Positions 17,836 to 36,233 of a stretch of DNA of 57,456 bases are shown here, piece by piece. The notes below the pieces were generated by a model. It did not search any database and was not told the DNA's origin. It saw only the letters and a program-made list of their open reading frames with translations. The stretch is from a virus, in IMG/VR virus record IMGVR_UViG_3300013004_000054, positions 1 to 57,456 of that record; one strand, given 5' to 3'. Every line of letters starts with the position of its first letter. Positions within the stretch are counted from its first letter, which is position 1. The position numbers and the translations under genes are program-made.

Positions 17836-17843
17836 GATACACG

Positions 17844-18539: not shown

Positions 18540-19114
18540 CAGAGGACTTCCCGAACTGGTTTAACACTGGAAATAGACCACAGGCATTTAAGGAACGTCT
18601 ATATCAGTACGCGGGAAGTGATGTGTCATTCCTTCAAATTGGAGCCTACACAGGCGACGCCACGTTGTGGATGCTGGAGAACATAATTTTTAACAGTGGG
18701 ACACTGACAGACGTTGATACTTGGGAAGGCTCAGACGAACCAGCGCATAAGGATATGAACTGGTCAAGTGTTGAGGACGTGTATGACAAGAGAACATCAG
18801 AAGCTCAAGACAAAGGGCATCTATTAAAGTACAAAGGAACAAGTGATGAGTTCTTTGCAGCAAACACTAAGACATACGACTTCATATACATTGACGGTGA
18901 TCATACTGCCTACGGGGTTCTAAAGGACGCTGTACATGCATACGAATGCCTAAATGTAGGAGGAATCTTAGCGTTCGACGACTACACTTGGACTGCAGGC
19001 TTAGGAGAAATAAACGAACCAAAGATGGCAATTGACGCCTTTGAAAAGATCTATCAGGATAGAATATCTCCCGTACACAAGGACTATCAAGCCTGGTATA
19101 AAAAGACACGATAG
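18515..19114 (+). CDS. Class I SAM-dependent methyltransferase (Methyltransf_24 type), 199 aa
   Basis: The glycine loop is in FLQIGAYTGDA (residues 39-49), the acidic ribose-binding segment is DVDTW (66-70), and FIYIDGDH at about residue 130 is the typical Methyltransf_24 motif. FDDYTW follows. These features match small methyltransferases that act on sugars or other small molecules in surface polysaccharide synthesis. It is the second such domain in the block, after the fusion at 15237, and lies next to a GT2 gene. The target is unknown. Confidence 0.75.
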   Translation: MAEEKLLVTEDFPNWFNTGNRPQAFKERLYQYAGSDVSFLQIGAYTGDATLWMLENIIFNSGTLTDVDTWEGSDEPAHKDMNWSSVEDVYDKRTSEAQDKGHLLKYKGTSDEFFAANTKTYDFIYIDGDHTAYGVLKDAVHAYECLNVGGILAFDDYTWTAGLGEINEPKMAIDAFEKIYQDRISPVHKDYQAWYKKTR

Positions 19115-19123
19115 GAGAGACGC

Positions 19124-21239: not shown

Positions 21240-21767
21240 CTATGCGTCGTTATACGTTCCAAGGTACAGATTGCTATTTACGTCTGGCCAAAGGTACTGA
21301 TAGTAAGGAGGACGTGTTCCAGTATCTTCTGGCCAACCAAACTGAGAGTACCAGCCGTAATCTTTACGTAGCAGTGCAATACGGTGAGTAGATGCAACCT
21401 GCTCAAACTTGTCAGTGTCCGACATCCAGCCAGGCATAGTTAGCTTGTCTTGGACACGACCCATACTTACTGCTAGGTCATAGGTACCGTAGATCTTTGG
21501 GAGCATGGTAGACTTGAAACCACGTTTGCGCCATTCAAAGTAGGTCGCCGCAAGATACGAGACTAAAAGCTTTTCGTGACCGCGCCACATGTGCGCAACA
21601 GGATGATTAACCCAGCCTTTAGGGTCACGATGATTACCTTGCGGGTCTAGTTCTGTAAGCGCAAGCAGAACCTGCCAGCCTTCAAGAGTTTGCTTGTGTA
21701 GACGCTTGTTGTCGATCTCGTGAGCAATACGCTCGAACGAGTCAGTCTGAGGTATAAACGTTTGCAT
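21240..21767 (-). CDS. Pyrimidine dimer DNA glycosylase-like protein (MSMEG_6728/DenV type), 175 aa
   Basis: The N-terminus MQTFIPQTDSFERIAHEIDN, then KRLHKQTLEGWQVL, W-V-N-H-P-V-A-H-M-W-R-G and EWRKRGF, follow the pattern of the actinobacterial MSMEG_6728 family annotated as pyrimidine dimer DNA glycosylase. The length (175 residues) fits. Such enzymes excise UV-damaged bases, like T4 endonuclease V. That activity would suit a phage of sunlit water, but the family's activity is largely inferred from fold. A TATAAT with a TTGACG 19 bp further upstream precedes the gene, so it may have its own promoter. Confidence 0.7.
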   Translation of the reverse strand: MQTFIPQTDSFERIAHEIDNKRLHKQTLEGWQVLLALTELDPQGNHRDPKGWVNHPVAHMWRGHEKLLVSYLAATYFEWRKRGFKSTMLPKIYGTYDLAVSMGRVQDKLTMPGWMSDTDKFEQVASTHRIALLRKDYGWYSQFGWPEDTGTRPPYYQYLWPDVNSNLYLGTYNDA

Positions 21768-21828: not shown

Positions 21829-22087
21829 ATTCCTCATCGTCTTCAAGAGGTCCAGAATCAAATGAGATCTCGTCTTCATTCTTCTCAGTGAATATACCGG
21901 CAACGGTGAGTTCGCCGCAAGTGCAACACGCGTGAACAGATCCGGGAGAAAGACGCAATGGAACTGCAATGGCAATAAGTTTGGAGACAAGACTGCCGTC
22001 ATCTCCAACTGACTCTGGTTCCCACTTGCTATTCTCCGCTATGTAGCAGACTTCGCACTGTGGGTAGGCGCTTTTTTTACGGCGCAT
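21812..22087 (-). CDS. Small cysteine-rich protein, 91 aa, unknown
   Basis: The product begins MRRKKSAYPQCEVCYIAENS. It has CxxC near the N-terminus and CCTCGE in the middle, a plausible four-cysteine zinc site. The C-terminal 25 residues are strongly acidic (PLEDDEEFDEEG). A small zinc-binding host-takeover or DNA-associated protein is possible. No family is recognised. Its start overlaps the stop of the methyltransferase gene by one base. Confidence 0.55.
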   Translation of the reverse strand: MRRKKSAYPQCEVCYIAENSKWEPESVGDDGSLVSKLIAIAVPLRLSPGSVHACCTCGELTVAGIFTEKNEDEISFDSGPLEDDEEFDEEG

Positions 22088-23343
22088 CAGGCTCCTTCTA
22101 CAGCATCAGAGTACCACTTTTTCTTAGCCGAGAAACGCGAGAACGATTTGTCAGCGTCAATAAGGTATTCGCGTTCGCCAATCAGTTCACCTTGCGGTCC
22201 GTTAGGCTGGCCTTCTAAGGCGGCTACAATGCCCTCTCCTAGCCATCTAGCAGCATTCACTGGTACTGCTTTGCCCCAGACTGCTTGTAGGCTTGAGTAA
22301 TCCTTTACGCTTTCAATGTCCCAATCGTCTGGCAGACCTTGCATGCGTGCAGACTCACGATGAGTGATAAGACGTGGCTCAGTTGGGTGAACCACATGAT
22401 CTAGTGCAGATCCTGTAAGAACGTTACACCAGTGATCTTCCTTCCAACGATATGGTTGTGAAAAACCAAGTTTGTATTCCTTACGTAGTACACGCGGAGC
22501 AATATCAATCCACTTTTGAGGAAACGCTCCACCGTTCATTTCTACTGCCTTTTTGATAGCTCCGCCAAGATCACCGTTGCCTGGCCAACCATCATTGCCG
22601 ATGATGTCAAACACTTCTTGAATTCTCTGCGCGTGAATGTTGTTCTTTCCAATATGACCATTCACTAGACCATTCTTGGATTTCAAGTGGCTAACCCAAC
22701 GGGACGGTTCTTCCACGTAAGGTTGCGCTTCCCACTTACGCGGAAGTTTTGCAAGATCTCCAATAATGTCCATTATTCTTGGAAGCTCTGTAGGCTGAAC
22801 AACATTGATACCAAAAGGCATACCTGATTCAACTGCAACCCAGAAGTATCGTGGGCGGAATGAGAAACCACCTAATTGAAGATTATTGTGCTTGATGTGG
22901 TATAGGTCGTACTTCTTGTTTGAGACGTCTTCGACCATCTTACGGTACTTGTTCATAACATCGCGACCTTGCGTGTACGCTTGTTGCACACACTCGAAGG
23001 CGATAATCTTAGGCGCTACTCGACCAGCATAGCGCATAAACGCGCGAGTATGCTCGTGCGCCTGTGCGTCTGGGCCTCTGTTCGCTTCACCGGACCAGAC
23101 AGACCAACCAGAGCATGGAGGGCAACCAGCAACTACATCAGCTTTTAACACTGGCCATTCACTGGAGTCTTCTGAGAAAAAGGTACTCCACGAATTGCCA
23201 AGGTAATTTCTGTTTGCTTCAGCAAGAGGATTACCAAAGTTAAGAGTTCCAGTCCGTGCAGTCATTGTCATTCCAGACTGAACAAGGCCAAGACTCATAA
23301 AGCCTGCAAGTCCATTGCAGTCAATAAAGGTAGGTTGAGACAC
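22087..23343 (-). CDS. C5-cytosine DNA methyltransferase, 418 aa
   Basis: The motifs of the Dcm/HhaI family appear in order. Motif I is FIDCNGLAGFMSLGL (residues 6-20). Motif IV is GCPPCSGWS, with catalytic Cys77. Motif VI is degenerate as FECV (ECV in place of the usual ENV). Motif VIII is FRPRYFWVAV. After a target-recognition region come HRESARMQGLPDDW and motif X, GKAVPVNAARW. The enzyme would transfer a methyl group from SAM to C5 of cytosine in DNA, probably to block host restriction. GTG at 23343 is the start, with GGAGG nine bases upstream. No cognate restriction enzyme is nearby, so it is an orphan methylase. The ECV change should be checked for activity. Confidence 0.9.
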   Translation of the reverse strand: MSQPTFIDCNGLAGFMSLGLVQSGMTMTARTGTLNFGNPLAEANRNYLGNSWSTFFSEDSSEWPVLKADVVAGCPPCSGWSVWSGEANRGPDAQAHEHTRAFMRYAGRVAPKIIAFECVQQAYTQGRDVMNKYRKMVEDVSNKKYDLYHIKHNNLQLGGFSFRPRYFWVAVESGMPFGINVVQPTELPRIMDIIGDLAKLPRKWEAQPYVEEPSRWVSHLKSKNGLVNGHIGKNNIHAQRIQEVFDIIGNDGWPGNGDLGGAIKKAVEMNGGAFPQKWIDIAPRVLRKEYKLGFSQPYRWKEDHWCNVLTGSALDHVVHPTEPRLITHRESARMQGLPDDWDIESVKDYSSLQAVWGKAVPVNAARWLGEGIVAALEGQPNGPQGELIGEREYLIDADKSFSRFSAKKKWYSDAVEGA

Positions 23344-23898: not shown

Positions 23899-24317
23899 CA
23901 GCCTACTCTTTTCTCTAACTTGTATGGAGAGTAGTGAGTGCCATCAAGCAAAGGTTCCTTGCCGTCTGTAGACTTAAAGATAATGTCTCCGTAACGAACA
24001 GCAACAACCTTACCTTTACGCCCATTGTGAATGCGACCAGTATCATCACTAAACGCATCACTAGCAACACGGACCTCGTCGCCAACGTTAATAAAGCCAG
24101 GGCGAGCTGGTTCCCATACTTCATGTTTGCTCTCGACAGTAAGAGCATGATTAAGTGCAACCTTAGAAAAGAGGTCAACCGCCTCTTTTGCTGCTGCTTC
24201 ACTTAGTTTTAGATCATTCCATGTTGAAAGAAGCTTAAGCACCGATGTGCCTACGCCTACTTTCACCTTTGCGGCTTGAAATTGTTCTCTAACCCAAGCC
24301 TCATCAACTTGCGGCAT
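23898..24317 (-). CDS. KOW/SH3-like domain protein, 139 aa, unknown
   Basis: I start at the ATG at 24317 because AAGGAGG lies 7 bp upstream; the longer frame from 24377 would run deep into the previous gene. The N-terminal half is helical. The C-terminal half (INVGDEVRVASDAF, then GRKGKVVAVRYGDIIF) resembles a small SH3/KOW-type barrel as seen in nucleic-acid-binding adaptors. It overlaps the dUTPase-like gene by 14 bp. The function is unknown. Confidence 0.55.
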   Translation of the reverse strand: MPQVDEAWVREQFQAAKVKVGVGTSVLKLLSTWNDLKLSEAAAKEAVDLFSKVALNHALTVESKHEVWEPARPGFINVGDEVRVASDAFSDDTGRIHNGRKGKVVAVRYGDIIFKSTDGKEPLLDGTHYSPYKLEKRVG

Positions 24318-24786
24318 TTGTTTCCTCCTTAGGTGAGCATTTTGCACACGTTCCTTCAATAACACCGGCACCGACATCGTCGATGGCTCGCGCGCATGCT
24401 ACGCACTTGACTCCAGCGTCTTTTACCTTGTATCCCTTAAGTTGACGTTGACGGTTTTTCTCCATCTTCTCAAGGTAATACTTGTTTAGTTGTTCGTCTG
24501 TTCCTCCAGCCGCAACAATAATGTTTGCGACAAAGTGCAGAACGTCAACAGCTTCTTTGATTATCTCTTCGCGGTCTGCGTATGGCTTGTCATGCTGCCA
24601 AGGCTTCCACGAGATTGCCTGGCGCATTTCTGCTAGCTCATCATCAATGGCTAGCATGTTCCAGCGCATGTACTCAACAAGACGACGAATGTTCGCGTCC
24701 TTATCCCCACTCATTTCTTCGTAGTTGATAAAGTACGTGTTTTCTTGTAGATCTTTTGTCTTATACAGCCATTTATTAAACAGCAT
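24304..24786 (-). CDS. All-alpha dUTPase/dCTPase-like pyrophosphatase with zinc ribbon, 160 aa
   Basis: The core shows the E-x2-E (Glu50, Glu53) and E-x2-D (Glu78, Asp81) metal-binding pairs of the MazG/dimeric dUTPase superfamily, in DELAEMRQAISWKPW and EEIIKEAVDVLHF. These enzymes hydrolyse dUTP or dCTP to the monophosphate. T4 gp56, which removes dCTP so that hydroxymethyl-dCTP can replace it, belongs to the same superfamily. The last 40 residues carry CVAC and CAKC, a probable zinc ribbon. It lies 1 bp from the glycosyltransferase-like pair. The substrate cannot be told from sequence. Confidence 0.75.
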   Translation of the reverse strand: MLFNKWLYKTKDLQENTYFINYEEMSGDKDANIRRLVEYMRWNMLAIDDELAEMRQAISWKPWQHDKPYADREEIIKEAVDVLHFVANIIVAAGGTDEQLNKYYLEKMEKNRQRQLKGYKVKDAGVKCVACARAIDDVGAGVIEGTCAKCSPKEETNAAS

Positions 24787-24787
24787 G

Positions 24788-25813
24788 CTATATTGCTCCT
24801 CTCCCTACTGCGATGCGAAGACCTAGTTGATCTTCTAGTAACGTTTTTGCTGCACTTTTAGACGGAATACTTGTTAAGTACTCTGCGGTCTGTCTTGTTG
24901 AAAGTGCGTTTCTTTCTTGGTTTGTCATTGTTTCTATTGGTGAGGCAAGCATACTCCACGAATCACCGATGCTGGAACTTTCGCGCCATTCAGTTGCAAT
25001 CGGTGTTTGCGCATTCATTGCTTGTGCATACCGGTATGTCCACCATGTTCCACCCTTGTACTGTGGTAGTAACACTCCTGACGACATTAGAATTTGGTCG
25101 TAGCATTCCTCGTCCTTCCATCCTTTGTTCCAACGGATAGGTACTATAGGAAATGACAGCGTTTTAGCAATTGACTTTGCCCAAGTAGTCGTTGGTCCTT
25201 CAGCAGCCCATCGGTTAAAGCGCACGTCAGTCTTATTTGATCTTGGCTCAATTAGATATGCATCAAGGTTTATTCCGTTAAGCACAAGCCCTTCAGGGAG
25301 TTCACGCTCAATTGAAGTAACATCGTGCCAAGGCAAAGACGGATAGATTGTTTTAGGCCATTTGCCACTCAGTAACTTATTAACAGTCTTGATAAGACGT
25401 TTAGATACGTCTGGGCTGTTGACTAGTTGGTAACCTTTGCGGTATGAGAAGAACGGCTTTGTTAGATTCTCTGGTGTAGACGATATAGCTCGAAGACTCG
25501 CAGTGATCTGCGCCGGGTGCGGTGCGTCGATAAACAAGGTAAGTTTATCACTGTTATACATCACGTCGATAATGTGAAGTGCACCATATGCCTTATTAGC
25601 ACTTAGACTGGTTAATGGCGAGACGCCAACAAGCACTGCGTCATAGTAATTGAGATTTTCAACCGTCCACGTGATGTCAGGTTCCATCATCACAACGGTG
25701 TGTCCTGCTTCAGTTAACACCTTTTCAATTGCGCCAGCAAAAGAAAGAGAGCGTTTATTGGCGGACATGGACATCTGTGGTGCAGACATTCCAGTTATAA
25801 GAACACGACTCAT
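24788..25813 (-). CDS. GT-B-like glycosyltransferase, second of a pair, 341 aa
   Basis: It begins MSRVLITGMSAPQMSMSANK and has a Rossmann-like first half with AIEKVLTEAGHTVVMMEPD. The C-terminal half includes GGTWWTYRYAQAMNAQTPIA, which parallels SGWWRSRFLYAARIGSILV in the gene upstream. The two proteins therefore look like diverged relatives. The layout fits a GT-B glycosyltransferase, as used by phages to glucosylate modified DNA bases. No direct donor-site motif is decisive. It overlaps the upstream gene by 4 bp (ATGA). If base modification is not its role, a glycan function is the main alternative. Confidence 0.55.
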   Translation of the reverse strand: MSRVLITGMSAPQMSMSANKRSLSFAGAIEKVLTEAGHTVVMMEPDITWTVENLNYYDAVLVGVSPLTSLSANKAYGALHIIDVMYNSDKLTLFIDAPHPAQITASLRAISSTPENLTKPFFSYRKGYQLVNSPDVSKRLIKTVNKLLSGKWPKTIYPSLPWHDVTSIERELPEGLVLNGINLDAYLIEPRSNKTDVRFNRWAAEGPTTTWAKSIAKTLSFPIVPIRWNKGWKDEECYDQILMSSGVLLPQYKGGTWWTYRYAQAMNAQTPIATEWRESSSIGDSWSMLASPIETMTNQERNALSTRQTAEYLTSIPSKSAAKTLLEDQLGLRIAVGRGAI

Positions 25814-27021
25814 GCATCAGTCCCGTCTGCATTTAGTTTAAGGCCTTTGTCTTCCTTAAGCGCGCGGGTAATAATTTTCTCAACGTGATCCTTAAAACCG
25901 TCATAGGTTCCAATGTACGGTCGTAGCGCATCAGCCTGAGCCTTTGCAGCAGCCTCTAGTTCCGCGTCAGACATCTTTTCGACGTCAGCCACGGTTAGCT
26001 TATAGGCATCACCTAACGGATCGCCCTCACCCTTGTCTGTGACAAGAATAGAGCCAATGCGTGCAGCATACAAGAAGCGTGAGCGCCACCAACCAGAACC
26101 AGCATGTGGGTACGGAGGTGACAAGATTCCCCAACGCTCGTTGTAGAAGTTTAGAACATCAAGTTCTGTGTCAAGGCGTTGTCCACCAAGTTTACGAATA
26201 AGTTTACGACTACCAATAATTTCAACTTGCCAGCCAAGATTCTTTCTTGCAAGCCATTCATCGTGAGGCATCAACGCGCCAAGTACCCATGCGCGTTTCT
26301 TTTCTGCTGCAGGTTTTGGTGTAATTGCGTTTAGCGTGTCAAATGTTACACAACTTGGATCAAGTGCCTCGATAGGGCCAACTTCACTTGGCATGCGTTT
26401 GCGAACACTAGTGCGGTCGCCCCACGCGTACATTGGACAAACTGGAACCATTCCAGCTTCCCAACGACGGTCAATCATGTCTGTTGCTGCTTGCACAAGA
26501 CGTTTTTCATAAGGCTTAATCTGTTCGTCCGTGTCCATCATGTAGTAGCGCTCAATGTAGCATTTCTTTGCAGCGTCTGGGTCTTTTTCTCTAACTCTTT
26601 CAAGTGCAGCCTCAATGTCTGCACGACTAAAGTATGTTGCGCCTTCTTCGCCGCGATGTTCAGTTCCTACAAGCAGATGTTTGTACAACATCGCAGGTTT
26701 GCGAACCATCGCGCGAGCGCCATTAAAAACTGTGTTAAACTGCCAATCGTCAAAGAATCCGACTGAAGGCAGTCCTGATGAAAGAGCGTATAGTGCACCC
26801 ATCGCGCCTTGGCGTCCGTTAAGTGAGTTTAACGGTGCAAGATTTATCCACGCGGCATCGTATGATGATAGATCTTCTCCAGGCGTGACCTTTCGCCAAT
26901 CTACATCGTGCCCTAGATCTGTTAACGCTTTTGCAATCAGTGCTGGTACATCAATCTTCTGAATAGTACGTCGCTCTGTGTTAATCTGCAGCGCTGTAAA
27001 TCCTGTCATCAAGATTTTCAT
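25810..27021 (-). CDS. GT-B-like glycosyltransferase, first of a pair, 403 aa
   Basis: The product begins MKILMTGFTALQINTERRTI. A Rossmann-like N-terminal domain contains IAKALTDLGHDVDW and YDAAWINLAPLNSL. The C-terminal domain has NERWGILSPPYPHAGSGWW and YAARIGSILVTD, in the position where GT-B enzymes bind the nucleotide sugar. It is related in outline to the next gene. AGGAG lies 7 bp upstream of the ATG. It sits downstream of a strong hairpin and upstream of a dUTPase/dCTPase-like gene, in a window that also encodes a hydroxymethylase, so glycosylation of hydroxymethyl bases is the favoured role. This is inference. Confidence 0.6.
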   Translation of the reverse strand: MKILMTGFTALQINTERRTIQKIDVPALIAKALTDLGHDVDWRKVTPGEDLSSYDAAWINLAPLNSLNGRQGAMGALYALSSGLPSVGFFDDWQFNTVFNGARAMVRKPAMLYKHLLVGTEHRGEEGATYFSRADIEAALERVREKDPDAAKKCYIERYYMMDTDEQIKPYEKRLVQAATDMIDRRWEAGMVPVCPMYAWGDRTSVRKRMPSEVGPIEALDPSCVTFDTLNAITPKPAAEKKRAWVLGALMPHDEWLARKNLGWQVEIIGSRKLIRKLGGQRLDTELDVLNFYNERWGILSPPYPHAGSGWWRSRFLYAARIGSILVTDKGEGDPLGDAYKLTVADVEKMSDAELEAAAKAQADALRPYIGTYDGFKDHVEKIITRALKEDKGLKLNADGTDA

Positions 27022-27041
27022 GCTTACTCCTATCTAAGTTG

Positions 27042-27084
27042 CTGGTATCATTGCCCATATTTTTGGTACAGGCAATGATACCAG
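27042..27084. other. Perfect 14-bp hairpin between ssDNA-binding and glycosyltransferase-like genes
   Basis: CTGGTATCATTGCC (27042-27055) and its exact complement (27071-27084) flank a 15-base loop in a 75-bp gap. Neither strand has a following T-run. It could be a factor-assisted terminator, an RNase processing site, an RNA-binding site or an origin-like structure. Confidence 0.75.
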
Positions 27085-27096
27085 AACAACTAGTTA

Positions 27097-27663
27097 TTAG
27101 AATGGCGACGCAGGTGCTGCTGGCGCTTGAGCAACAGGAGCTACTGGAGCTTCTGCCATTACAGGCGCTGGAGCTGGTGCTGGTGCCGGAGCTGGCGCTG
27201 GAGCCGGTGCTGGTGCAGGTGCTGGTGCAGCTGCTGCAGCGGTCGTTGCAGTAGCGGTTGCAATGTAGTACATCTTGATTTCGTTTTTCTTGGAACCATT
27301 CCAAGTACGTGAACCAATCTGTGCACGGAACGCGCGTCCCTTAAGTGCAGCCTCAATCTGTGCATTACTTGGGCTTGATGAGAAGTATTCACGTCCCAAA
27401 CCAAGTGCTGCCATTTTGCGGAAGAACATGCCTAATGCAGCAGGGCTGTCAGGTGTGACAACTAAGTTGTCCCAGACCAAACGCTTGTTGTGTGGTCCTC
27501 CCTGTACTTGTGCCTTAACAGCAAACATGGTCTTTCCTGATTGTGCTACCTTTGCAGTAGCTTCTAATACGAGGAGATCGTAATCTCCGTCTGGTAGTGG
27601 ATCGTAGTTTCCTCCGACGTCACCGGCGTCCTTAACAAGATCGCCCCAATTGAGTGAACTCAT
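27097..27663 (-). CDS. DUF669-like ssDNA-binding protein with Pro-Ala tail, 188 aa
   Basis: YDPLPDGDYDLLVLEATAKV, SGKTMFAVKAQVQGG, RLVWDNLVVTPDSP and the following ALGLG follow the DUF669 pattern of phage proteins found beside recombination genes and thought to bind ssDNA (OB-fold). After residue ~140 comes an Ala-Pro repeat and a linker ending in SPF, like the flexible tails of SSB proteins that recruit partners. It is directly downstream of the Sak4-like ATPase, the usual context. The tail is unusually regular, with about ten consecutive Ala-Pro pairs. Confidence 0.75.
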   Translation of the reverse strand: MSSLNWGDLVKDAGDVGGNYDPLPDGDYDLLVLEATAKVAQSGKTMFAVKAQVQGGPHNKRLVWDNLVVTPDSPAALGMFFRKMAALGLGREYFSSSPSNAQIEAALKGRAFRAQIGSRTWNGSKKNEIKMYYIATATATTAAAAAPAPAPAPAPAPAPAPAPAPAPVMAEAPVAPVAQAPAAPASPF

Positions 27664-27702
27664 GTACCTTTACCTTTCCTTGTTGTGCGCTAACCGGATT
27701 GG

Positions 27703-28473
27703 CTAGGACGCTGCTTTTTTTGTTTTAGCTTCTGGCTTTGGGCCAAAAACCAAGTCTAACATTCGTTCAATTCCAAGATTTTCTTGTTCGACTACTTTTC
27801 CTAGTCGCCCTTGAACGCGTTCACCGGCCTCGTATGCATCAGTACGTTCGACGTACATGCGACGTACTTTGTATGGAGGTTGCAGTGGATCTGGGTTTGG
27901 CTGTGTTTCCACAGTAATCGCACCCAAAATGTCGTAAAAATACGGAGCCTGAATTGCAAGCTGACCTTGAAGGTACGGACGCACGCGCCCATCTTGTCCA
28001 GGACGAGCCATAGCAGTTAGCACAACAGCTTCTAGCGGTTGTGTTGGGTGCATTGTTAAGTCACGTAGGTCACGCAATAGCGCTCCCATGTGACGAAGCA
28101 ATTCGCCCCACTGCTGCATCTTCATTTGTTCTGTACCAGCGATGCTATCCATACACTTCACTTGAAGCTCTGAGATAGAATCAATAATCAATGACTTAAA
28201 CTGATGCTTACCAGTTTGTAACCATTGAAACGACTTCATGACTACATCGTAGTCACGAACATTCACAACCACAGTATCCCAGGTTCCATCTGCAACAGGT
28301 GGTTCCTCCCGCAATGGGTCCCAGTACTTAACATTGATGGGAAGGAATCTATGTCCACCCTCAACGTCAAGCATGAGACGGGGATAAGGTGCGGTTACCG
28401 CAAAAGTTGATTTACCAACCTTTGACTCGCCATACACCATGATTGTGAGGGAACGTTGTACTTCGTTTGACAT
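27703..28473 (-). CDS. Sak4-like RecA-fold ATPase (recombination), 256 aa
   Basis: Walker A is YGESKVGKST (residues 14-23) and Walker B is in SLIIDSISEL. The sequence between and after (MLDVEGGHRFLP, VVLTAMARPGQDG) follows the AAA_24/Sak4 group of short phage RecA-like proteins that promote single-strand annealing with an SSB partner. The length is normal for the family. It lies between a PD-(D/E)XK nuclease and a DUF669 ssDNA-binding protein, forming a compact nuclease-annealase-SSB set. AAGGAAG at the end of the upstream gene supplies the ribosome binding site. Confidence 0.8.
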   Translation of the reverse strand: MSNEVQRSLTIMVYGESKVGKSTFAVTAPYPRLMLDVEGGHRFLPINVKYWDPLREEPPVADGTWDTVVVNVRDYDVVMKSFQWLQTGKHQFKSLIIDSISELQVKCMDSIAGTEQMKMQQWGELLRHMGALLRDLRDLTMHPTQPLEAVVLTAMARPGQDGRVRPYLQGQLAIQAPYFYDILGAITVETQPNPDPLQPPYKVRRMYVERTDAYEAGERVQGRLGKVVEQENLGIERMLDLVFGPKPEAKTKKAAS

Positions 28474-28476
28474 ACG

Positions 28477-29418
28477 TCACTCACTTCCTTTCTTCTCTTC
28501 GTTGTTGTTGTAATATCCGTATGGATCTGCTGATGCATACGATTCGCTAATTGCTTGTTCGGCGGCGGAACCGTCGTCGATCAGCGGGCAAATAGCGAAA
28601 AATTGGCACTTCCACTTACAGTCACGGCTTGGACGTGGATATGCGACTAGTTGATGAGTAACTCCCTCATCTAAAGCTTTACGGACGTTTAGCAAGTCGC
28701 TAATTGTTCCGTGGACGCGCTGCCAAAAGGCACGCAGTGTAAAGATGTTGTGACGAACTTCCATCTGCTCATAGAAAGGTGGCTTTGCATTTGCAGTGCG
28801 CTTTACCTTCTTCAACATCGTGAAGATGCCGCCTTCTGAACGTTCGCCTTCCTTATTTTGTGCAGTCTCGAGCATCATGTATGTAAGAATCTGCTCATTC
28901 ATATGCGCCATTGACGCGAAGTCTGTAAAGGAACCACCGACTGTCTTAAAGTCACGGAACATACGAACACCGTCAGCCTTGCGACGAACGCGCATGTCAA
29001 TCTTGCCTTGCAAGATTACCTTATTGTCGAACAACGGCATTTCAATAATCTCTTCAGTAGAAATCATCTCTAACTCTGCGTCGATACCTTGGTCTTCTAC
29101 CCAGTCAAGGTAACCTTCAAGCATGATGCGACCAAGCTCTGCCTCAGAGTCAAGATCAGAAGTATCGCGAAACGAATTGGCAAGAATTAACTTATCTTTT
29201 TCTACAAGTGCTGCGTGCGCCTCAATTAAAGGAATGTCCTTTGAGTAGTAGTCATCAAGCGCTTGGTGGATACGTGAACCAAGAGCAAGTGCGCCTGTTT
29301 TTGATTCCATTCTAGGTTGCAGTCTACGATAGTAGCTAAGCCACCACTTTCGTCTGCAGTCCTTAAACGTTTGCAGCTCTGAGTTAGAGATGCGTAGTGG
29401 ACCAGTAAGTTCACTCAT
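28477..29418 (-). CDS. PD-(D/E)XK nuclease, Cas4/RecB-like with Fe-S cluster, 313 aa
   Basis: LGSRIHQAL (His motif), VILQGKIDMRV (Asp motif) and FRDFKTVGG (D-x-K) form the RecB/Cas4 nuclease core. One cysteine near the N-terminus (KDCRRKWW) and three near the C-terminus (DCKWKCQFFAIC) match the AddB/Cas4 pattern that holds a 4Fe-4S cluster. It probably resects DNA ends for the Sak4-type annealing system encoded next to it. The ATG overlaps the helicase stop (ATGA), so the two are co-translated. No CRISPR array or other Cas gene is present. Confidence 0.8.
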   Translation of the reverse strand: MSELTGPLRISNSELQTFKDCRRKWWLSYYRRLQPRMESKTGALALGSRIHQALDDYYSKDIPLIEAHAALVEKDKLILANSFRDTSDLDSEAELGRIMLEGYLDWVEDQGIDAELEMISTEEIIEMPLFDNKVILQGKIDMRVRRKADGVRMFRDFKTVGGSFTDFASMAHMNEQILTYMMLETAQNKEGERSEGGIFTMLKKVKRTANAKPPFYEQMEVRHNIFTLRAFWQRVHGTISDLLNVRKALDEGVTHQLVAYPRPSRDCKWKCQFFAICPLIDDGSAAEQAISESYASADPYGYYNNNEEKKGSE

Positions 29419-31220
29419 AGTTTTCCCGCCTTATCATCTTTAAGAAGCGATAACAGTTGAGCCTTATCGCGAACGATTTGTTCAAAGTTATCTGCCTTTG
29501 TTTCTAGTACTTGAATTACGCGTTCCTCGATAGTTCCTTCAGTGACGTAATCAGTGATTACCACTGAGTCGTGAATCTCTGAACCAATACGGTGAATACG
29601 GTCAAGTGCTTGCTTGTGGTCAACAAGTGACCAAGGACGCTGTAGCATGACAAGACGTCTTGCCGCAGTTAGTGTAATTCCGACACCACCAGCCTGTGCT
29701 GTAAAAAGTATCCACTTGATCTTGCCAGCCTGAAAATCATCAACTGCTTGTTGACGTTCATCTTCATCCTGAGCACCAGTGATGAGACCATGTGGAATTT
29801 TTTCCTTAGTTAGTTCTGCACTAAGTAAATCTATAAGTTGTCGTGATACAGCGCATACTGCAACTGAGTCGTCACCAAAGTCGCCGCTCTTGATGTCGTC
29901 CATAAGCGCATCAACCTTGCACGAAGGACCGATAAGTTTAACTTCAGTCTCGCCTGTAGATTCATCAACTGTTACTTCTGCAAATGAACTTGCAAACTGC
30001 AGAAGACGAATTGTCTGAGTTAGTGCGCTTGGCGCAGTTAATGAATCTCCACCTTCAAGCTCTGCAATCATAAGATCACGCATCTGGTCGTAAGCTTTCT
30101 TTTGCTTAGTTGACATTTCAACGTCCTTGCGTTCAAACATCATTTCTGGCAGCCAAGGAAGTACTTTTTTCTTAAGCATACGACGCATACGAGGATTGAC
30201 GGCAGCATAGAACTCTTCTTCCATGTGAGGCTTTACACCAAGAACCATCATTCCGCCAAATGCGTTAAGCATAATGTTAATCATTCGGTCAATCCAGCGA
30301 GTCTTGCTTGGCCATTCCTCAGGTGACAACCAGTGAAGAATCGACCATAGATCTAAAACGTTGTTTGCAATAGGTGTTCCAGTGAGTGCAAAACGAATGT
30401 CAGCGTTCCCAGTAGCAGCCCACAGCGCACGTGTCTGTTTTGACTTAGGCTCTTTTGAGCGGTGAATCTCATCAGCAACTACTGACTTAAAGTCGATTGC
30501 GTTTAATTCACGACGATGTACCTCGCAACGATTTTCACTTACTTTTTCATCGTGGCCGCCGCAGTCCTTGCATTTTGCAAGAGCAATTGATCCATATCCT
30601 GCAAGTCTAGAGTGTGTCCTCAAGGACTCCCAGTTAATAACGAATACATCAGCGTCGTTCTCAAAGATCTTCCTACGTTGCGTTGCGGATCCTTTGATTA
30701 CCTCAACGTCAATGCCTGGCCACCAGCGCTCAAACTCACGCTTCCAGTTTTTCTTAAGAGTATTAGGGCAGACGATAAGAGCTGGGAACACATCGTTACC
30801 TTGTGCTTGTAATTCCTTTAGCGCACGGATTGCTTGGGCTGTTTTTCCTAAGCCAGGTTCATCAGCAAGTAGCGCCCGTCGTGCTGTAGCAAGAAACTTT
30901 ACGCCTGCTCGTTGGTGGGGAAATAGGTCCTCGTTAGAGGCGTCCTCAAGGGTCTCTAGGTCACGAAGAGCGTTGGCTGGGGTAATACGCGTGGCTAGCT
31001 CATTTGATGCCCAGAGCGACAATTTAGGGCCAATTATTAGGTCGTCACGAAAGGTTGAGCGTAAGGCAAGACAGGTTGCCCACGATGCAGGAACTCTCCA
31101 CTGCTGCGCACCGGCATCCCATTTTGATCCAGGAATACTTTTGCAAAGCTCTTTAAAGCGCCACTCAGTATGGATAATTATATTAGCGCTTGAATCATCA
31201 AGCTCTACATTTACTGGCAC
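29415..31220 (-). CDS. SNF2-family DNA helicase/translocase, 601 aa
   Basis: Walker A is DEPGLGKTAQA, motif II is VVADEIHRSK (DEIH), motif III is FALTGTPIAN, and the second RecA domain ends with GVGITLTAARR and QALDRIHRIGS (motif VI). An N-terminal ~95 residues, including KWDAGAQQWRVP, resemble the HARP-type substrate domain of annealing helicases such as SMARCAL1. An inserted cysteine set (CKDCGGH, then C and H) suggests a small zinc knuckle. It would remodel replication forks or recombination intermediates. GTG at 31220 starts the frame, with a candidate promoter just upstream. Confidence 0.85.
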   Translation of the reverse strand: MPVNVELDDSSANIIIHTEWRFKELCKSIPGSKWDAGAQQWRVPASWATCLALRSTFRDDLIIGPKLSLWASNELATRITPANALRDLETLEDASNEDLFPHQRAGVKFLATARRALLADEPGLGKTAQAIRALKELQAQGNDVFPALIVCPNTLKKNWKREFERWWPGIDVEVIKGSATQRRKIFENDADVFVINWESLRTHSRLAGYGSIALAKCKDCGGHDEKVSENRCEVHRRELNAIDFKSVVADEIHRSKEPKSKQTRALWAATGNADIRFALTGTPIANNVLDLWSILHWLSPEEWPSKTRWIDRMINIMLNAFGGMMVLGVKPHMEEEFYAAVNPRMRRMLKKKVLPWLPEMMFERKDVEMSTKQKKAYDQMRDLMIAELEGGDSLTAPSALTQTIRLLQFASSFAEVTVDESTGETEVKLIGPSCKVDALMDDIKSGDFGDDSVAVCAVSRQLIDLLSAELTKEKIPHGLITGAQDEDERQQAVDDFQAGKIKWILFTAQAGGVGITLTAARRLVMLQRPWSLVDHKQALDRIHRIGSEIHDSVVITDYVTEGTIEERVIQVLETKADNFEQIVRDKAQLLSLLKDDKAGKL

Positions 31221-31247
31221 TGTGCTTAGTCCTCTCGTCGTTACGTA

Positions 31248-31277
31248 ATCATACTATCAGGATTTTTAGAAAAGCAA
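31248..31277 (-). promoter_or_regulatory. Candidate promoter for helicase-nuclease-Sak4 genes
   Basis: On the minus strand TTGCTT (31277-31272) and TATGAT (31253-31248) are separated by 18 bp in the 87-bp gap upstream of the helicase. The predicted start of transcription would be about 20 bp before the GTG. Confidence 0.45.
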
Positions 31278-31307
31278 ACACTTTTCTGCTTAGTATCTAC
31301 TTTTTTA

Positions 31308-31760
31308 TTATTGTAGCAATCTTGTGGGTTTCCATCCTGTTTTTACCAGTCTAAGCAGCCCATGTCGAATAGCGTCAAGCGCGTGACCTTCCCCACCTTT
31401 ATGCCAGTATTCAAGTTTCTTAAGTTTAGGGTTATCAAACATTGCCTTTGCGTCCGCGGGAGACTGAAAATAAATGTCGTCAGGTTTTCTCCCTGCGTCC
31501 ATAAGACACTGCTTAAGGATACCAATTTGCTCAAGTGAGTAAGGTGCCTGCGAGTTACGAACAGTCTGAGCGTTGATGGTAAATCTTTCACACACTACTT
31601 CAACATCAGGGTACATCCGCAATGTTTCACGAATCGGTTGAGCGTATTCTTCCTGTTGGTACTCACCCGACCACACAAGAACGGGTTCAGCATCAGCCTC
31701 CCTGGTGAAAAGAGCCATACCAGTTGCCTTACCTGGGTCTACTGAAAGTATTACCTTCAT
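31308..31760 (-). CDS. RuvC-like Holliday junction resolvase, 150 aa
   Basis: I start at the ATG at 31760, which overlaps the deaminase stop (ATGA); the longer frame runs into that gene. The RNase H fold acidic residues are in ILSVDPGKATGMALF, EVVCERFTIN and HALDAIRHGL. The size is typical of phage RuvC-like enzymes, which trim branched DNA before packaging. The neighbours are replication and recombination genes. Confidence 0.8.
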   Translation of the reverse strand: MKVILSVDPGKATGMALFTREADAEPVLVWSGEYQQEEYAQPIRETLRMYPDVEVVCERFTINAQTVRNSQAPYSLEQIGILKQCLMDAGRKPDDIYFQSPADAKAMFDNPKLKKLEYWHKGGEGHALDAIRHGLLRLVKTGWKPTRLLQ

Positions 31761-32077
31761 GTCCACACCACCTGGGCTACGCCCAACCTTTCCAAATAAC
31801 TTTGACATTTCTTGCACGGCTTCGAATACGCAGGTGAACCATCAGCCGCAAGTCTTGCAACATAAACCAACGCGCCCTTGGCACGAGTCCCAGCAGCAAG
31901 AACGGCAGCAGCCTCAGCATGAATATGTGATCTACGCCAATGCGTTGTTGGGTCCGCTATTTTTTTGTTTGTTGCAGTTGCAATAATTCTCCCCCTAGAT
32001 ACCACGATACATCCGTGCCTGTATCGACACTTACTTTTTTGTGCAACCTCAAGAGCCATCTCAAGGTACCTGTTCAT
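31757..32077 (-). CDS. Small cytidine/deoxycytidylate deaminase-fold protein, 106 aa
   Basis: HIHAEAAAVLAAG and KPCKKCQSYLERLG give the H-A-E and P-C-x2-C zinc motifs of the deaminase superfamily. The early RHGCIVVSRGRIIATA is the usual first hairpin. At 106 residues it is smaller than the dCMP deaminase encoded 1.8 kb upstream, so the window has two deaminases. The substrate is unknown; a nucleotide, tRNA or modified base are all possible. Its start overlaps the polymerase stop by one base. Confidence 0.75.
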   Translation of the reverse strand: MNRYLEMALEVAQKSKCRYRHGCIVVSRGRIIATATNKKIADPTTHWRRSHIHAEAAAVLAAGTRAKGALVYVARLAADGSPAYSKPCKKCQSYLERLGVAQVVWT

Positions 32078-33897
32078 TAGTACTTATCTCCCCATGTTTC
32101 AAGTGGACCGTCGATACCTGATGTAAGCGGGACGTCCCAACCTTCACGAGTTGTCATGCACTCTTTGACTATCTGCATAATCTCTTGAGCGTCCTTGCGC
32201 GGTGCATTAAGAACAATTTCGTCGTGCACTGGAACGATGAGAAGCTCGGTTAGATCTGCTTGGTCAAGTTTAACAAGGTTAGACTTGAAAACTTCAGCCG
32301 CGCCTCCTTGAATTAGATAGTTAACAAGAGTGTAAGCGCGGTCATCATCACATGGGAGACGTCGTCCTGTCCAAGTATAAACGTAACCTTGCCCTTCTGC
32401 CTTTAGACGACGCATACCGGCATCTTCTATTTGGCGTTGGAACAGTGCCATTCCAGGATAGCGTGTGTCAAACGCATCGGACACTTGACGCATCTGCATT
32501 TCTGGAACTCCAGCAGTTAAAGCTTGTTTTGAGACGCCTGCTCCGTAGAGACGACCATAGACAGTTCCCTTAATAAGATTACGACGTTTGTCTGACCGTT
32601 GCATCGTTGGGTCATTGTAGATTTCACGACCAATTTCCGTGAACGGATCCGACCCCGTTGCGTCCGCACGATTGAATAGTGTGATGAGGTTTGGATCTTT
32701 AGAGAGTGATGCGAACATTCTGAATTCAACCTGGTCAAGGTCTGAGGTGATGATGACGTGATCTTCGTCCTTTGGGATAAACGCGGTACGAACAGTAGCA
32801 TCACCTTTAGGCAAAGTCTGTAGCGCTGGATTCTGAATAGACATGCGTGATGTGCGTGCGCCAAGTGTCTTTACTGATGGATGAACAAAGCCGTTGACGT
32901 TATCGTTAAGAAAGTTTGCAAAGTACGTGTTTGCAAGTTTATCTGCCTTGCGCTGCTTTAGAACTGTATCCGCTAGATTCTTTACCTCGGCGTTTCCTTC
33001 AATTGAAAGAAGCTGTAGTTGATCCTTATCTGCAGACTTCTGACCTGACGGAGTAAGCGCTGTGATCTCAGCGCCAAGGCTCTCGAATAGTCTTACCAGT
33101 TGTATGTTACTTGTGATTGATACACCGTTGTATGTTTGTGCTGCCCAGGTCTTTACAGACTCGGCATAGGACGTTAGCTCGTCAAACTTTTTCTTAGAGT
33201 AGTCAAGGTCGATACGCGCGCCATTGATTTCCATACGAGTGACGATCTTACGTGCAGCCATTTCTAATTCGTAGGCACGATGGTACGGTTGCCCTGGACC
33301 ACATTTCTCCCAGAACTGTTCCCACAAGCGCATAGTTAACACAGTATCCAACGCGCCATAAGCCCAGTAAGGTTGGAAGTTAGTTGGAACAGTTCCCCAT
33401 GTCCAACCATTTGTTACAAGTGATACATCTAATGTTTCCTGCATTGCTGCAGCACGACTATCAACATACAAAGATGAAAGACGCTTTAGCGCACCGGAAC
33501 CAAGTGGATCAATGATGTGAGCCATAATCATTGTGTCATGTGAACGTCCCCAGGGCATCTGCCATGTTGAGTGAACATCAAACCAACGAGCCTCAAACGC
33601 AATGTTGTGACAAACTATAGGTCCATCAAACTTGTCCATTGCCTCATAAAACACGCCGGCCCATTCCTTCCAGGGAATTGCCCAGCCAGTCATGCCATCA
33701 CCAACTTGCACTAGGCGCAGTTGCCCGTGCCAAGGTGAAAGAGCGTCCTTACGTTCGCCACCAGGATTCTCACCTGTTTCAGTATCTATTGCAATCGCGT
33801 TGTGTGGACGGCGTTCTCCAAGCCAAGATATAAACTGATGTGCAGTTTCTACGTTGTCTACGAGATGCAGTTTAACGTCACTTAGTCCTTCAGTCAT
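32077..33897 (-). CDS. polA: Family A DNA polymerase with 3'-5' exonuclease domain, 606 aa
   Basis: The exonuclease domain opens with IAIDTETGENPGG (Exo I). Polymerase motif A is TSDLDQVEFRMFA, motif B (O helix) is RRNLIKGTVYGRLYG and motif C is VPVHDEIVLNAP. There is no 5'-3' exonuclease domain, as in phage T7-like replicative enzymes. The residue four after the O-helix lysine is Tyr, as in T7 polymerase, which is known to reduce discrimination against dideoxynucleotides. GAGGTGA eight bases upstream supports the ATG at 33897. It is probably the phage replicase, since no other polymerase is in the window. Confidence 0.92.
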   Translation of the reverse strand: MTEGLSDVKLHLVDNVETAHQFISWLGERRPHNAIAIDTETGENPGGERKDALSPWHGQLRLVQVGDGMTGWAIPWKEWAGVFYEAMDKFDGPIVCHNIAFEARWFDVHSTWQMPWGRSHDTMIMAHIIDPLGSGALKRLSSLYVDSRAAAMQETLDVSLVTNGWTWGTVPTNFQPYWAYGALDTVLTMRLWEQFWEKCGPGQPYHRAYELEMAARKIVTRMEINGARIDLDYSKKKFDELTSYAESVKTWAAQTYNGVSITSNIQLVRLFESLGAEITALTPSGQKSADKDQLQLLSIEGNAEVKNLADTVLKQRKADKLANTYFANFLNDNVNGFVHPSVKTLGARTSRMSIQNPALQTLPKGDATVRTAFIPKDEDHVIITSDLDQVEFRMFASLSKDPNLITLFNRADATGSDPFTEIGREIYNDPTMQRSDKRRNLIKGTVYGRLYGAGVSKQALTAGVPEMQMRQVSDAFDTRYPGMALFQRQIEDAGMRRLKAEGQGYVYTWTGRRLPCDDDRAYTLVNYLIQGGAAEVFKSNLVKLDQADLTELLIVPVHDEIVLNAPRKDAQEIMQIVKECMTTREGWDVPLTSGIDGPLETWGDKY

Positions 33898-34360
33898 TTA
33901 GAATCGTCACCTCAATGTTACAGTTTTTAAGATACTCAATTGTTGCTTCCGGCTTACGGTGCGCGGCGGTACTACTGACACGCATAACAACTCGATGTAC
34001 TCCTGAGTTTGACACAAGCTTTGCACACTGCATACACGCAACATCAGTGATGTATATTGTTCCGCCTTCAATACGAGAACGGTCAACATACATGAGTGCA
34101 TTAGCCTCAGCATGAATGGACGGGCAAGCGTCATAAACGTTGTCCAATGGAGCAACACCTTGTGCCCGTGGACACCAGCTAATACAATCACCTTCAACCT
34201 CAAGTGTTGCTGCTGGTCCGTTATAACCGGTAGAGGCTATTCGTTGATTAGCTGAAACGATAACCGCGCCAATTTGCGCACGAGAACAGCGTGAACGACA
34301 TGCAATAGTGTCTGCAATAGTCATCCACGTTGTATCCCAAGATGGCCTAATCTGTGCCAT
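33890..34360 (-). CDS. Deoxycytidylate (dCMP) deaminase, 156 aa
   Basis: The zinc site is SIHAEANALMYV plus CMQCAKLV, preceded by the CSRAQIGAVIV hairpin and a CPRA region typical of dCMP deaminases. It converts dCMP to dUMP. It sits between the hydroxymethylase-like gene and the polymerase, overlapping the polymerase start by 8 bp. In T4-like pathways dCMP deaminase balances thymidine supply against hydroxymethylation of dCMP. Confidence 0.88.
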   Translation of the reverse strand: MAQIRPSWDTTWMTIADTIACRSRCSRAQIGAVIVSANQRIASTGYNGPAATLEVEGDCISWCPRAQGVAPLDNVYDACPSIHAEANALMYVDRSRIEGGTIYITDVACMQCAKLVSNSGVHRVVMRVSSTAAHRKPEATIEYLKNCNIEVTILND

Positions 34361-34368
34361 TTGCTTGC

Positions 34369-35247
34369 CTACTTTTCTTCAGCTTCTTGCTTTTCAGCTG
34401 CTTTTCTTTTATTACTTTCAATAGATGAAACCATTGCGCGAGTGTACCATTCTTCGTCACCTGTAAGTCTCATTGTTGCAGTTAGATCAGTCACCGCGTC
34501 GAGTGCAAGAAGAGCAGACGACTGAACCTCGCGCCAAGAGCGTCCAGTAATGTAAGGAATTGGTTCCATCTCCTTCGCGTACTTAAGAGTATTCGCTGCC
34601 TCATAGTTATTTTCATAGATGTGCAATGAACCAACGTGGTGAGCGTATGTTCCAGGCTCGATACCAAGAACTGATGCCACCGCAAGTTGAACGCGGGTAA
34701 ACTGGAAGAAGTCATAAGCAGCACCAAGCCAAACATCGTTTGAGCGCATGTACACGCTCATGTTAAGCTTATTATTGCGAATTCTAAACTGATGAAGAAT
34801 CGTGCACGGATAGTCGCGCTTTCCAGGTTGCAGATCAAACTGTGGGTTCCAAATAGTAACAACAGCCTGTCGCGTGTCTGGGTCTTTCTTTAGGCGACCA
34901 ATTACTGTGTCAAACTGATTAGCTGTGCGAAGACCGTATGCACCGTGAAACAAACCGTTGTCCTCGGCGTAGTTAGCAAACTGCGGTCCAATTGCAACCA
35001 CAAGCCCTGGGTAACTTGTACCAGACAGAAGCTGGCAAGCCTCAACCGCACCAATACCAGGCACAGCTCCACGACCTACGCCTAACGGTAAGGTGTCATA
35101 GATATTATCTATATGAATTACCGCGTCCTCAATCTCAAGTGTCTTAAGACCGCGTGGAGCGACCTCTACACCGTTGTTTAAGACGTGCTTTACAAGATCA
35201 ACGTAACCGTTAACCCCGTCCTTTAGCTCGATTACCGAAGCGCCCAT
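34369..35247 (-). CDS. dCMP hydroxymethylase-like enzyme (thymidylate synthase fold), 292 aa
   Basis: The nucleophile is Cys148 in DYPCTILHQF. MRSNDVW (168-173) and VGSLHIY (205-211) match T4 dCMP hydroxymethylase (MRSND, VGSLHVY) better than thymidylate synthase (QRSCD, GGDTHLY). The residue that is Asn177 in E. coli thymidylate synthase, and that selects dUMP, is Asp179 here. T4 gp42 also has Asp, which favours dCMP. The predicted reaction adds a hydroxymethyl group from methylene-tetrahydrofolate to C5 of dCMP. GGAGG precedes the ATG. It overlaps the kinase fusion by 16 bp. A plain thymidylate synthase is the main alternative, but the motif pattern argues against it. Confidence 0.8.
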   Translation of the reverse strand: MGASVIELKDGVNGYVDLVKHVLNNGVEVAPRGLKTLEIEDAVIHIDNIYDTLPLGVGRGAVPGIGAVEACQLLSGTSYPGLVVAIGPQFANYAEDNGLFHGAYGLRTANQFDTVIGRLKKDPDTRQAVVTIWNPQFDLQPGKRDYPCTILHQFRIRNNKLNMSVYMRSNDVWLGAAYDFFQFTRVQLAVASVLGIEPGTYAHHVGSLHIYENNYEAANTLKYAKEMEPIPYITGRSWREVQSSALLALDAVTDLTATMRLTGDEEWYTRAMVSSIESNKRKAAEKQEAEEK

Positions 35248-36233
35248 TTGTCCTCCTTGTTTGGGTTTGTTGTATTTCTTTTAATTGCCTCGCCATACTC
35301 TGTCTTATCGCGATTGTGAAATCTGCGAACGTACTGTGGGTGAGGCAAAACTACGTCCGGTGTTACTCCTTGTGATTCCATTCCTTTTGCCGCAAGGCGA
35401 CCAAGAGCTATGGTTGTCGGTGAGTTAAGCGCAGTGTGAAGGGCGCTAAATGAACCATTCATGTCGTTGACGTTTACTATACCGACTGTCTTCCAAAACT
35501 CTGAAGGTAAGGCCGTAAGCAAGAACTCGCCAGAGTTACCATCAACCGGCATGAAAGGTAGATGGGTTTCTACGCCATACTTCTTTACGATGTTTCTGCA
35601 ATCACCAACAAGTAGAACCTCTGGCTCAAGTGAACCGATGTACTCTGGGAAAGAAACAAGTTTCTTGACTCTTTCGGAATTTAACGAGGCTGTATCAACA
35701 ACGCGCCTTGCAAGATCTGTTATGCCATCAAGACTATCGGCCTCTGGTTTAAGAATATCAGTAAGATTTGACACAACAGCGGCAGCGTTATACTGGTCAA
35801 GTATCTCACTAAGTTCGTTAACGTTGACAAAGTCGTCGCCGCGACTTGATAGACGAGACTGAATAACATCGAGAGGTTGATACAACCAAAATTGAGATAT
35901 ACCACGTGATTTCATGAAGAGCTCTGTCCATCGCCAGCCAGCTCTACCTAGTAAACCGTACCCATCATTATTCGTGTGAGGGCGTTTTAACGGTGCATAC
36001 GTAATCTCACCCCAGTGCCAACGATCTGATAGCGCGTTATTACGCGTCCAATCAACGGACTCAATTGACGTAACATAGTCGTTTAACACCCAACGACGAG
36101 TTTCCTCGCCTGGGCGACCTTTATGGAACTTCTGCAGATCACTTGACGGGTAGCGAGATCTAATCTCAGCATCAATAGCCTCGATTAGAGACGTTTTTCC
36201 AGAAGCGTCTGTACCTTCAATAACTATAAACAT
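35232..36233 (-). CDS. Thymidylate/dNMP kinase-like P-loop protein with C-terminal UDG-like domain, 333 aa
   Basis: Walker A is EGTDASGKTSL (residues 6-16), LSDRWHWGE supplies the DR-type motif, and RLSSRGDDF the lid-like arginines, so the first ~185 residues are a dNMP kinase. The last ~140 residues have the outline of a uracil-DNA-glycosylase-like fold: LLVGDCRN, PFMPVDGNSGEFLL, IALGRLAAKG, then LPHPQYVRRFH. The fusion is unusual. A kinase is needed to convert hydroxymethyl-dCMP to the diphosphate, as T4 gp1 does. The second domain may recognise a base or be inactive. It is the first gene after a promoter-like TGTTATAAT. Confidence 0.7.
   Translation of the reverse strand: MFIVIEGTDASGKTSLIEAIDAEIRSRYPSSDLQKFHKGRPGEETRRWVLNDYVTSIESVDWTRNNALSDRWHWGEITYAPLKRPHTNNDGYGLLGRAGWRWTELFMKSRGISQFWLYQPLDVIQSRLSSRGDDFVNVNELSEILDQYNAAAVVSNLTDILKPEADSLDGITDLARRVVDTASLNSERVKKLVSFPEYIGSLEPEVLLVGDCRNIVKKYGVETHLPFMPVDGNSGEFLLTALPSEFWKTVGIVNVNDMNGSFSALHTALNSPTTIALGRLAAKGMESQGVTPDVVLPHPQYVRRFHNRDKTEYGEAIKRNTTNPNKEDKWALR

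Follow-up and report, generated by a model that had tools for sequence, protein, structure and literature searches.

The closest described counterpart of the system reported here is the 5-hydroxymethylcytosine (hmC) pathway of phage T4, which relies on gp42, gp56, gp1 and the glycosyltransferases AGT and BGT. Related chemistry is known from MilA (PDB 5b6d), the CMP 5-hydroxymethylase of an antibiotic pathway; from the arabinosyl-5-hydroxycytosine systems of phages RB69 and HY126, which combine a cytosine-specific enzyme of the thymidylate synthase (TS) fold with glycosyltransferases; and from phage hypermodification that depends on TET/JBP dioxygenases. Here we analyse IMGVR_UViG_3300013004_000054, a 57,456-base IMG/VR record of a freshwater virus (the whole stretch is hereafter called the window), which probably encodes a T4-like cytosine-hypermodification pathway in which hydroxymethyl-dCMP is made, incorporated into DNA and glycosylated.

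With T4, the window has in common a predicted Asp179-type hydroxymethylase, a dCTPase-like protein of the gp56 superfamily, a dNMP kinase, a dCMP deaminase and glycosyltransferases predicted to have the GT-B fold. It differs from T4 in that the glycosyltransferases belong to other sequence families, the kinase is TMK/YorR-like and carries a UDG-like domain, the polymerase is of family A, the genes share one operon with replication genes and a C5-cytosine methyltransferase accompanies them. The TS-like protein of the window shares with MilA the Asp and its SxHIY context, but is predicted to use dCMP rather than CMP. As in the RB69 and HY126 systems, a TS-fold enzyme stands together with glycosyltransferases; unlike theirs, the window enzyme keeps the motif MRSND, and a cluster of arabinose-5-phosphate isomerase and NTP-transferase genes was not identified in the window. 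The likeness to TET/JBP-dependent systems lies in phage C48C1, where a homologue of one of the window's glycosyltransferases directly follows a TET/JBP gene. As no TET/JBP dioxygenase was matched in the window, and none exceeded the family cut-off in 35 records, we rejected this route for the window phage. The T4-style hmC and glycosylation pathway named in the original prediction is supported as a prediction, with a hydroxymethylase whose sequence bears it out and with glycosyltransferases of non-T4 families. The genes on which it was based are all open frames on the minus strand; together with the polymerase, they are:

34369–35247, minus strand: TS-fold enzyme of the Asp type (PF00303, E = 2e-27)
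35232–36233, minus strand: P-loop deoxynucleotide kinase, TMK/YorR-like, with a weakly UDG-like C-terminal domain (PHROG thymidylate kinase, 2e-12; YorR 2axp, 6e-10)
33890–34360, minus strand: dCMP deaminase (PF00383, 5e-18; PHROG dCMP deaminase, 3e-40)
32077–33897, minus strand: family A DNA polymerase with a 3′–5′ exonuclease domain (PF00476, 1e-54)
25810–27021, minus strand: GT1, a predicted GT-B DNA glycosyltransferase of 403 amino acids (aa)
24788–25813, minus strand: GT2, a paralogous predicted GT-B DNA glycosyltransferase of 341 aa
24304–24786, minus strand: all-alpha protein of the dUTPase_2/MazG superfamily, a predicted dCTPase/dUTPase (PF08761, 2e-12)

A predicted dCMP hydroxymethylase

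Among all PDB sequences, the top match of the TS-like protein was MilA (4e-21), which ranked above every thymidylate synthase. The protein carries MRSND, VGSLHIY, the catalytic Cys148 and an Asp at position 179 that aligns with Asp179 of T4 gp42 and occurs in 59/59 non-identical aligned relatives; the two motifs and the Asp at the selectivity position had all been named in the original prediction. Asn at position 179 selects uracil, and Asp selects cytosine. The folate-contacting RSxD motif, which is also present in thymidylate synthases, is kept as MRSND in the window, T4 gp42, DSL-LC01 and the Gordonia and soil homologues. A Bacillus dUMP hydroxymethylase has RSND too, but an Asn at position 179. 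Given the best match to MilA and the retention of both Asp179 and MRSND, the enzyme is most like a folate-using dCMP hydroxymethylase, and from these comparisons we predict that 34369–35247 encodes a dCMP 5-hydroxymethylase of the T4 gp42 and MilA group. As for dCMP versus dUMP as the substrate, the protein has the cytosine-selecting Asp and resembles a CMP hydroxymethylase more closely than it does any thymidylate synthase, in line with what had been proposed.

The same fold and residue also occur in enzymes with a different product. Enzymes of the RB69 ORF048 type are 5-hydroxy-dCMP synthases with the TS fold, according to PMC13390438, and in our alignment they share the Asp of position 179; in addition, a GT1 homologue lies within the RB69-type cluster of Morganella phage Rgz1. 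The window enzyme might accordingly make 5-hydroxy-dCMP, or else 5-methyl-dCMP, with the glycosyltransferases acting on 5-hydroxycytosine or another target. We regard this as unlikely: RB69 ORF048 and the Rgz1 enzyme read MRSQNC, having lost the Asp of RSxD and the LG that follows, whereas the window protein and its DSL-LC01, Gordonia and soil homologues retain MRSND, and the best solved match of the TS-like protein is a hydroxymethylase.

Two predicted DNA glycosyltransferases outside the T4 families

GT1 and GT2 matched no family in Pfam or NCBIfam, and in the databases searched their families carry no tie to DNA. An hhalign comparison shows the two proteins to be homologues (99.7%). AlphaFold2 models, built from 24 homologues for GT1 and 23 for GT2, were of good quality, with confidence values (pLDDT) of 84 and 91, respectively. 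In the PDB, the best match of GT1 was T4 beta-glucosyltransferase (1qkj; Foldseek E = 1e-5, probability 1.00, TM 0.47/0.53), and the GT2 model matched GT-B enzymes including the phage HY126 glycosyltransferase (9ir0, 3e-4) and T4 AGT (1y8z, 1.4e-3). Compared by eye, FFDDW in GT1 and LFIDA in GT2 seem to resemble the LFTD(100)I of BGT at the end of a strand. On the strength of these models, GT1 and GT2 are predicted to be GT-B DNA glycosyltransferases. The glycosyltransferase fold expected of the pair was therefore found, as GT-B in the models and, for GT1, with T4 BGT as the nearest PDB structure. The view of the two as related GT-B-like proteins as in T4 holds for their homology and fold but not for their family: hhalign gave no sequence link between GT1 and T4 BGT (probability 0.4%), and the profiles of T4 BGT (PF09198) and T4 AGT (PF11440) had no match in the window although the T4 positive control matched. 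The glycosylation step would therefore be an analogue that uses other enzymes, not that of T4.

GT1 homologues accompany makers of hydroxylated cytosine

An Asp-type TS, 38–69% identical to that of the window, was present in all searched GT1-bearing actinophage records longer than 22 kb; only two GT1-bearing actinophage records, both of them short fragments, lacked it. In the T4-like Tulanevirus phages (Aeromonas phages and Stenotrophomonas phage IME13), a GT1 homologue is accompanied by gp42 (57% to T4) and by a separate Asn-type TS, and a search of these GT1-bearing phages for AGT and BGT found neither, with the T4 positive control matched. The GT1 homologue of Morganella phage Rgz1 adjoins an arabinose-5-phosphate isomerase gene, and the deoxycytidylate enzyme of this arabinose cluster has the motif MRSQN and 81% identity to RB69 ORF048; the homologue showed no sequence link to the HY126 glycosyltransferase in the PDB. 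In phage C48C1 (L087, 4586–8033), genes for a TET/JBP dioxygenase (PF12851, 3e-17), a GT1 homologue and a UDP-galactopyranose mutase (UGM) are consecutive, the dioxygenase lying directly upstream of the GT1 homologue; its genome has no TS and no C5-methyltransferase detectable by PF00145. GT1 homologues thus accompany four makers of a cytosine hydroxyl, namely the actinophage Asp-type TS, T4 gp42, the RB69-type 5-hydroxy-dCMP synthase and the TET/JBP dioxygenase. That one glycosyltransferase family has four independent partners would be difficult to account for if the target of GT1 were not hydroxylated cytosine in DNA, and GT1 homologues appear to track hydroxylated cytosine rather than one enzyme family.

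Earlier work flagged these families at most in passing. Iyer et al. 2013, as cited in PMC8056088, singled out a glucosyltransferase of Aeromonas phage Aeh1 as a DNA modifier, and glycosyltransferases of Nanopelagicales phages have been proposed to protect DNA (PMC10202952). Separately, Vibrio phage D525 (L243, 5395–6318) encodes a protein with a GT1-like C-terminal part near genes for a QueC-like protein and a nicotinamide phosphoribosyltransferase, where glycosylation of another modified base is possible.

Phages have many glycosyltransferases with surface or superinfection roles, and an acceptor other than DNA was raised as an alternative for the Nanopelagicales phages (PMC10202952). In the window, GT1 and GT2 could likewise modify cell wall, teichoic acid, arabinogalactan or a virion protein, with the TS-like gene serving nucleotide supply only; UDP-galactofuranose (UDP-Galf), the product of UGM, is a wall precursor, and another glycosyltransferase gene of the window (19124–20218) lies near tail genes. 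We think this quite unlikely, as the best fold match of GT1 is a DNA glucosyltransferase, GT1 and GT2 are encoded in a replication and nucleotide operon, and the association of GT1 homologues with the four enzymes described above extends to phages without other known DNA glycosyltransferases.

Conserved linkage and a slot for glycosyltransferases

Scanning viral contigs with the TS protein yielded 80 viral loci with a common gene order: kinase, TS, dCMP deaminase, polymerase, RuvC-like protein, helicase, nuclease, ATPase, single-stranded-DNA-binding (SSB) protein, GT1, GT2 and dUTPase_2. An order kept in 80 related loci does not arise by chance. Three further genes of the window belong to this neighbourhood:

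27097–27663, minus strand: DUF669/SSB-like protein, at the left edge of the glycosyltransferase slot (PF05037, 1e-5; PHROG SSB, 2e-8)
31757–32077, minus strand: second, shorter dCMP-deaminase-like protein (PF00383, 4e-13), with homologues in 12/80 loci
22087–23343, minus strand: C5-cytosine-methyltransferase-like protein (PF00145, 4e-17)

Where 700 bases or more lay beyond the SSB gene, a glycosyltransferase occupied the slot in 57/57 loci (GT1 in 48, GT3 in 8 and GT2 alone in 1). Since a glycosyltransferase is always present and its type varies, the slot seems reserved for this function while its content is exchanged. In five inspected loci (L013, L016, L032, L039 and L040), a cassette of GT3 and an APH-like small-molecule kinase replaces GT1 and GT2 after the SSB gene, with a HAD-like phosphatase also present in four of them, next in order in most. 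Relatives of GT1 occur at no fewer than 452 loci in IMG/VR, and GT2 is also present in 78 of the 80 GT1 loci that were kept from these.

Nucleotide supply

The dNMP kinase of the original prediction stands as a P-loop enzyme with a thymidylate kinase match, but needed correction to a TMK/YorR-like protein, YorR/TMK being its nearest solved structure, with an additional C-terminal domain. This domain of ~140 aa (residues about 190–333) is weakly UDG-like (PF03167 in 14/30 homologues, best E = 0.007), has no obvious GEAPG-type motif and belongs to the kinase of this group of phages; the kinases of phages Kurnik and Sixama do without it. Both the dCMP deaminase and the all-alpha dUTPase/dCTPase of the gp56 superfamily were confirmed. 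The latter, encoded at 24304–24786, matches T4 gp56 directly by BLAST (E = 2e-8, 27% over 134 aa) and is predicted from this similarity to be a dCTPase/dUTPase like gp56.

That the Asp-type enzyme is instead a divergent thymidylate synthase, with the deaminase, dUTPase and kinase forming an ordinary dTTP supply, is very improbable: dCMP deaminase and dUTPase both feed dUMP, and the database names for the TS-like protein read thymidylate synthase, but in 59/59 relatives an Asp stands at the site of the uracil-selecting Asn (Asn177 in E. coli), MilA is the best structural relative, and the T4-like GT1-bearing phages have a separate Asn-type TS besides their Asp-type enzyme.

A proposed pathway

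From the genes present, their residues and folds and their conserved linkage, we infer the substrates, products, sugar and order of action as follows. The gp56-like all-alpha NTPase would remove dCTP (and dUTP) to give dCMP, which the Asp-type TS-fold enzyme would convert to 5-hydroxymethyl-dCMP with methylene-tetrahydrofolate. The TMK-like kinase and the host NDP kinase would phosphorylate this product to hydroxymethyl-dCTP, which the family A polymerase of the phage would insert in DNA instead of dC. Finally, GT1 and GT2 would glycosylate the hydroxymethyl group, most likely one after the other, attaching a first and a second sugar or two sugar types.

Several observations weigh against this pathway. 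Asp179 selects cytosine, but alone is no proof of a hydroxymethyl over a methyl product. The fold matches of GT1 and GT2 are moderate (TM about 0.5), and neither could be linked by sequence to a solved structure, those of DNA glycosyltransferases included. No UGM was found in the window or in window-type records, even those of 99–136 kb, and among the genes of the window none was recognized as a dedicated sugar-nucleotide gene. Moreover, a conserved C5-cytosine methyltransferase would serve no purpose in DNA whose cytosines all carried a C5 substituent already; because complete substitution would leave it without a substrate, replacement may be partial or the enzyme may do something else.

The linked methyltransferase

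This C5-methyltransferase-like gene is syntenic with the glycosyltransferase module and has intact catalytic motifs. The parts listed in the original prediction are confirmed, yet the list it called complete should also include this enzyme, which travels with the module. Cys77, Glu117, Arg163, Arg165 and Lys358 are present in 53/53 relatives, and Lys358, which takes the place of the motif X Asn (HhaI N304), is found in Micrococcus phage Kurnik as well; it possibly reflects a changed cofactor or substrate. The position of HhaI Asn304 is Arg350 in the cytosine carboxymethyltransferase CmoX and Lys in the engineered carboxymethyltransferase M.MpeI N374K (PMC12783734). The window enzyme resembles CmoX (PMC12783734) in having a basic residue here, but has CPPC and Lys358 where CmoX has SPPC, Arg and a CmoA partner. 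CmoX-type carboxymethylation, which Lys358 had suggested, was set aside after CmoA was not found in 25 related records.

A possible furanose sugar

In DSL-LC01 the gene order is SSB–GT1–UGM–GT2–MazG, and UGM also follows GT1 in contigs L033, L103–L107, L112 and L114. In Aeromonas and Stenotrophomonas phages, Erwinia phage FBB1 and C48C1, UGM adjoins the GT1 homologue with gaps of 5–44 bases. A UGM similar to that of IME13 (E ≤ 1e-10) occurs in 87 of 50,697 phage records; 24 of the UGM-bearing records, counting DSL-LC01, have a GT1 homologue, and the two genes stood side by side in 15/15 records whose coordinates were compared. As most records with both come from one genus, the proper unit is the lineage (about five) rather than the record. 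Because the products of UGM are furanose sugar nucleotides, the natural guess in UGM-bearing lineages is a furanose (for example galactofuranose, or else arabinofuranose), and the linkage suggests that the DNA of some GT1-bearing phages is modified with a furanose, possibly galactofuranose. We did not take UGM as a general marker of DNA modification, because Rhizobium and Agrobacterium phages have UGM without an annotated glycosyltransferase alongside.

For the window's own phage, galactofuranose has no direct support, as UGM was found neither in the window nor in the long window-type records. Host UDP-glucose would be the default sugar donor and host UDP-Galf an alternative; a furanose is plausible because the closest sister clade of GT1 often has UGM as the next gene. 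A broader proposal, which we put forward only tentatively and consider somewhat doubtful, is that GT1 is a family of DNA furanosyltransferases that in several lineages attaches galactofuranose from the adjacent phage UGM to hmC, and that a single slot holds an arms-race cassette in which GT1, GT2, GT3 and the mutase are exchanged.

The phage and its cultured relatives

The window encodes a siphophage set (tail, tape measure, major tail, Dit and head genes) and a WhiB gene, which together fit a siphophage of an actinobacterial host. No terminal repeat was found in the 57,456-base record, isolated phages yielded no close DNA relative of the window, and genome contigs scanned with the TS-like protein for hosts or prophages gave no match. 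Adjoining the module, 21240–21767 on the minus strand encodes a protein like pyrimidine dimer DNA glycosylases (PF03013, T4 DenV type). On the plus strand, 15222–20218 encodes a fused methyltransferase, a DUF401 membrane protein, a second methyltransferase and a GT2-family glycosyltransferase, with collagen-like tail fibre genes alongside; it looks like an accessory block for the host surface or metabolism. A domain of ~70–80 aa is repeated in several structural proteins on both strands (6141–6716, 6957–11546, 39149–41131 and 48491–49537; blastp, 37–69% identity), which suggests a shuffled immunoglobulin-like domain of the virion surface.

Cultured phages share the arrangement. The complete 56-kb genome of Micrococcus phage Kurnik has, in the order of the window, genes for the polymerase, a RuvC-like protein, helicase, nuclease, a RecA-like protein, GT3, two further glycosyltransferases, a MazG-like protein and a methyltransferase, and upstream of them genes for a T4-gp42-like Asp enzyme (NMRSNDAVYGFRND) and a kinase. 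In Gordonia phages GMA2 and Sixama, GT1–GT3–GT2 is followed by MazG and methylase genes, and an Asp-type TS is present as well. Kurnik and the Gordonia phages GMA2, Forza, Sixama and GodonK make the proposed chemistry testable at once.

In the literature that we searched, hydroxymethylcytosine is not described for actinophages. Through the pathway proposed here, T4-style cytosine hypermodification would come to include a large group of aquatic phages that are uncultured and show actinobacterial features, as represented by the GT1 loci of IMG/VR. If the furanose proposal is true, a hexose bound to DNA in its furanose form would be a base modification of a new kind and would add a new class of DNA modification; hmC could be labelled with new enzymes, and the window-type phages could be supplied by those actinobacterial hosts in which UDP-Galf is already made. 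Actinobacteria would then also be worth searching for type IV restriction enzymes or DNA glycosylases that match the modification.

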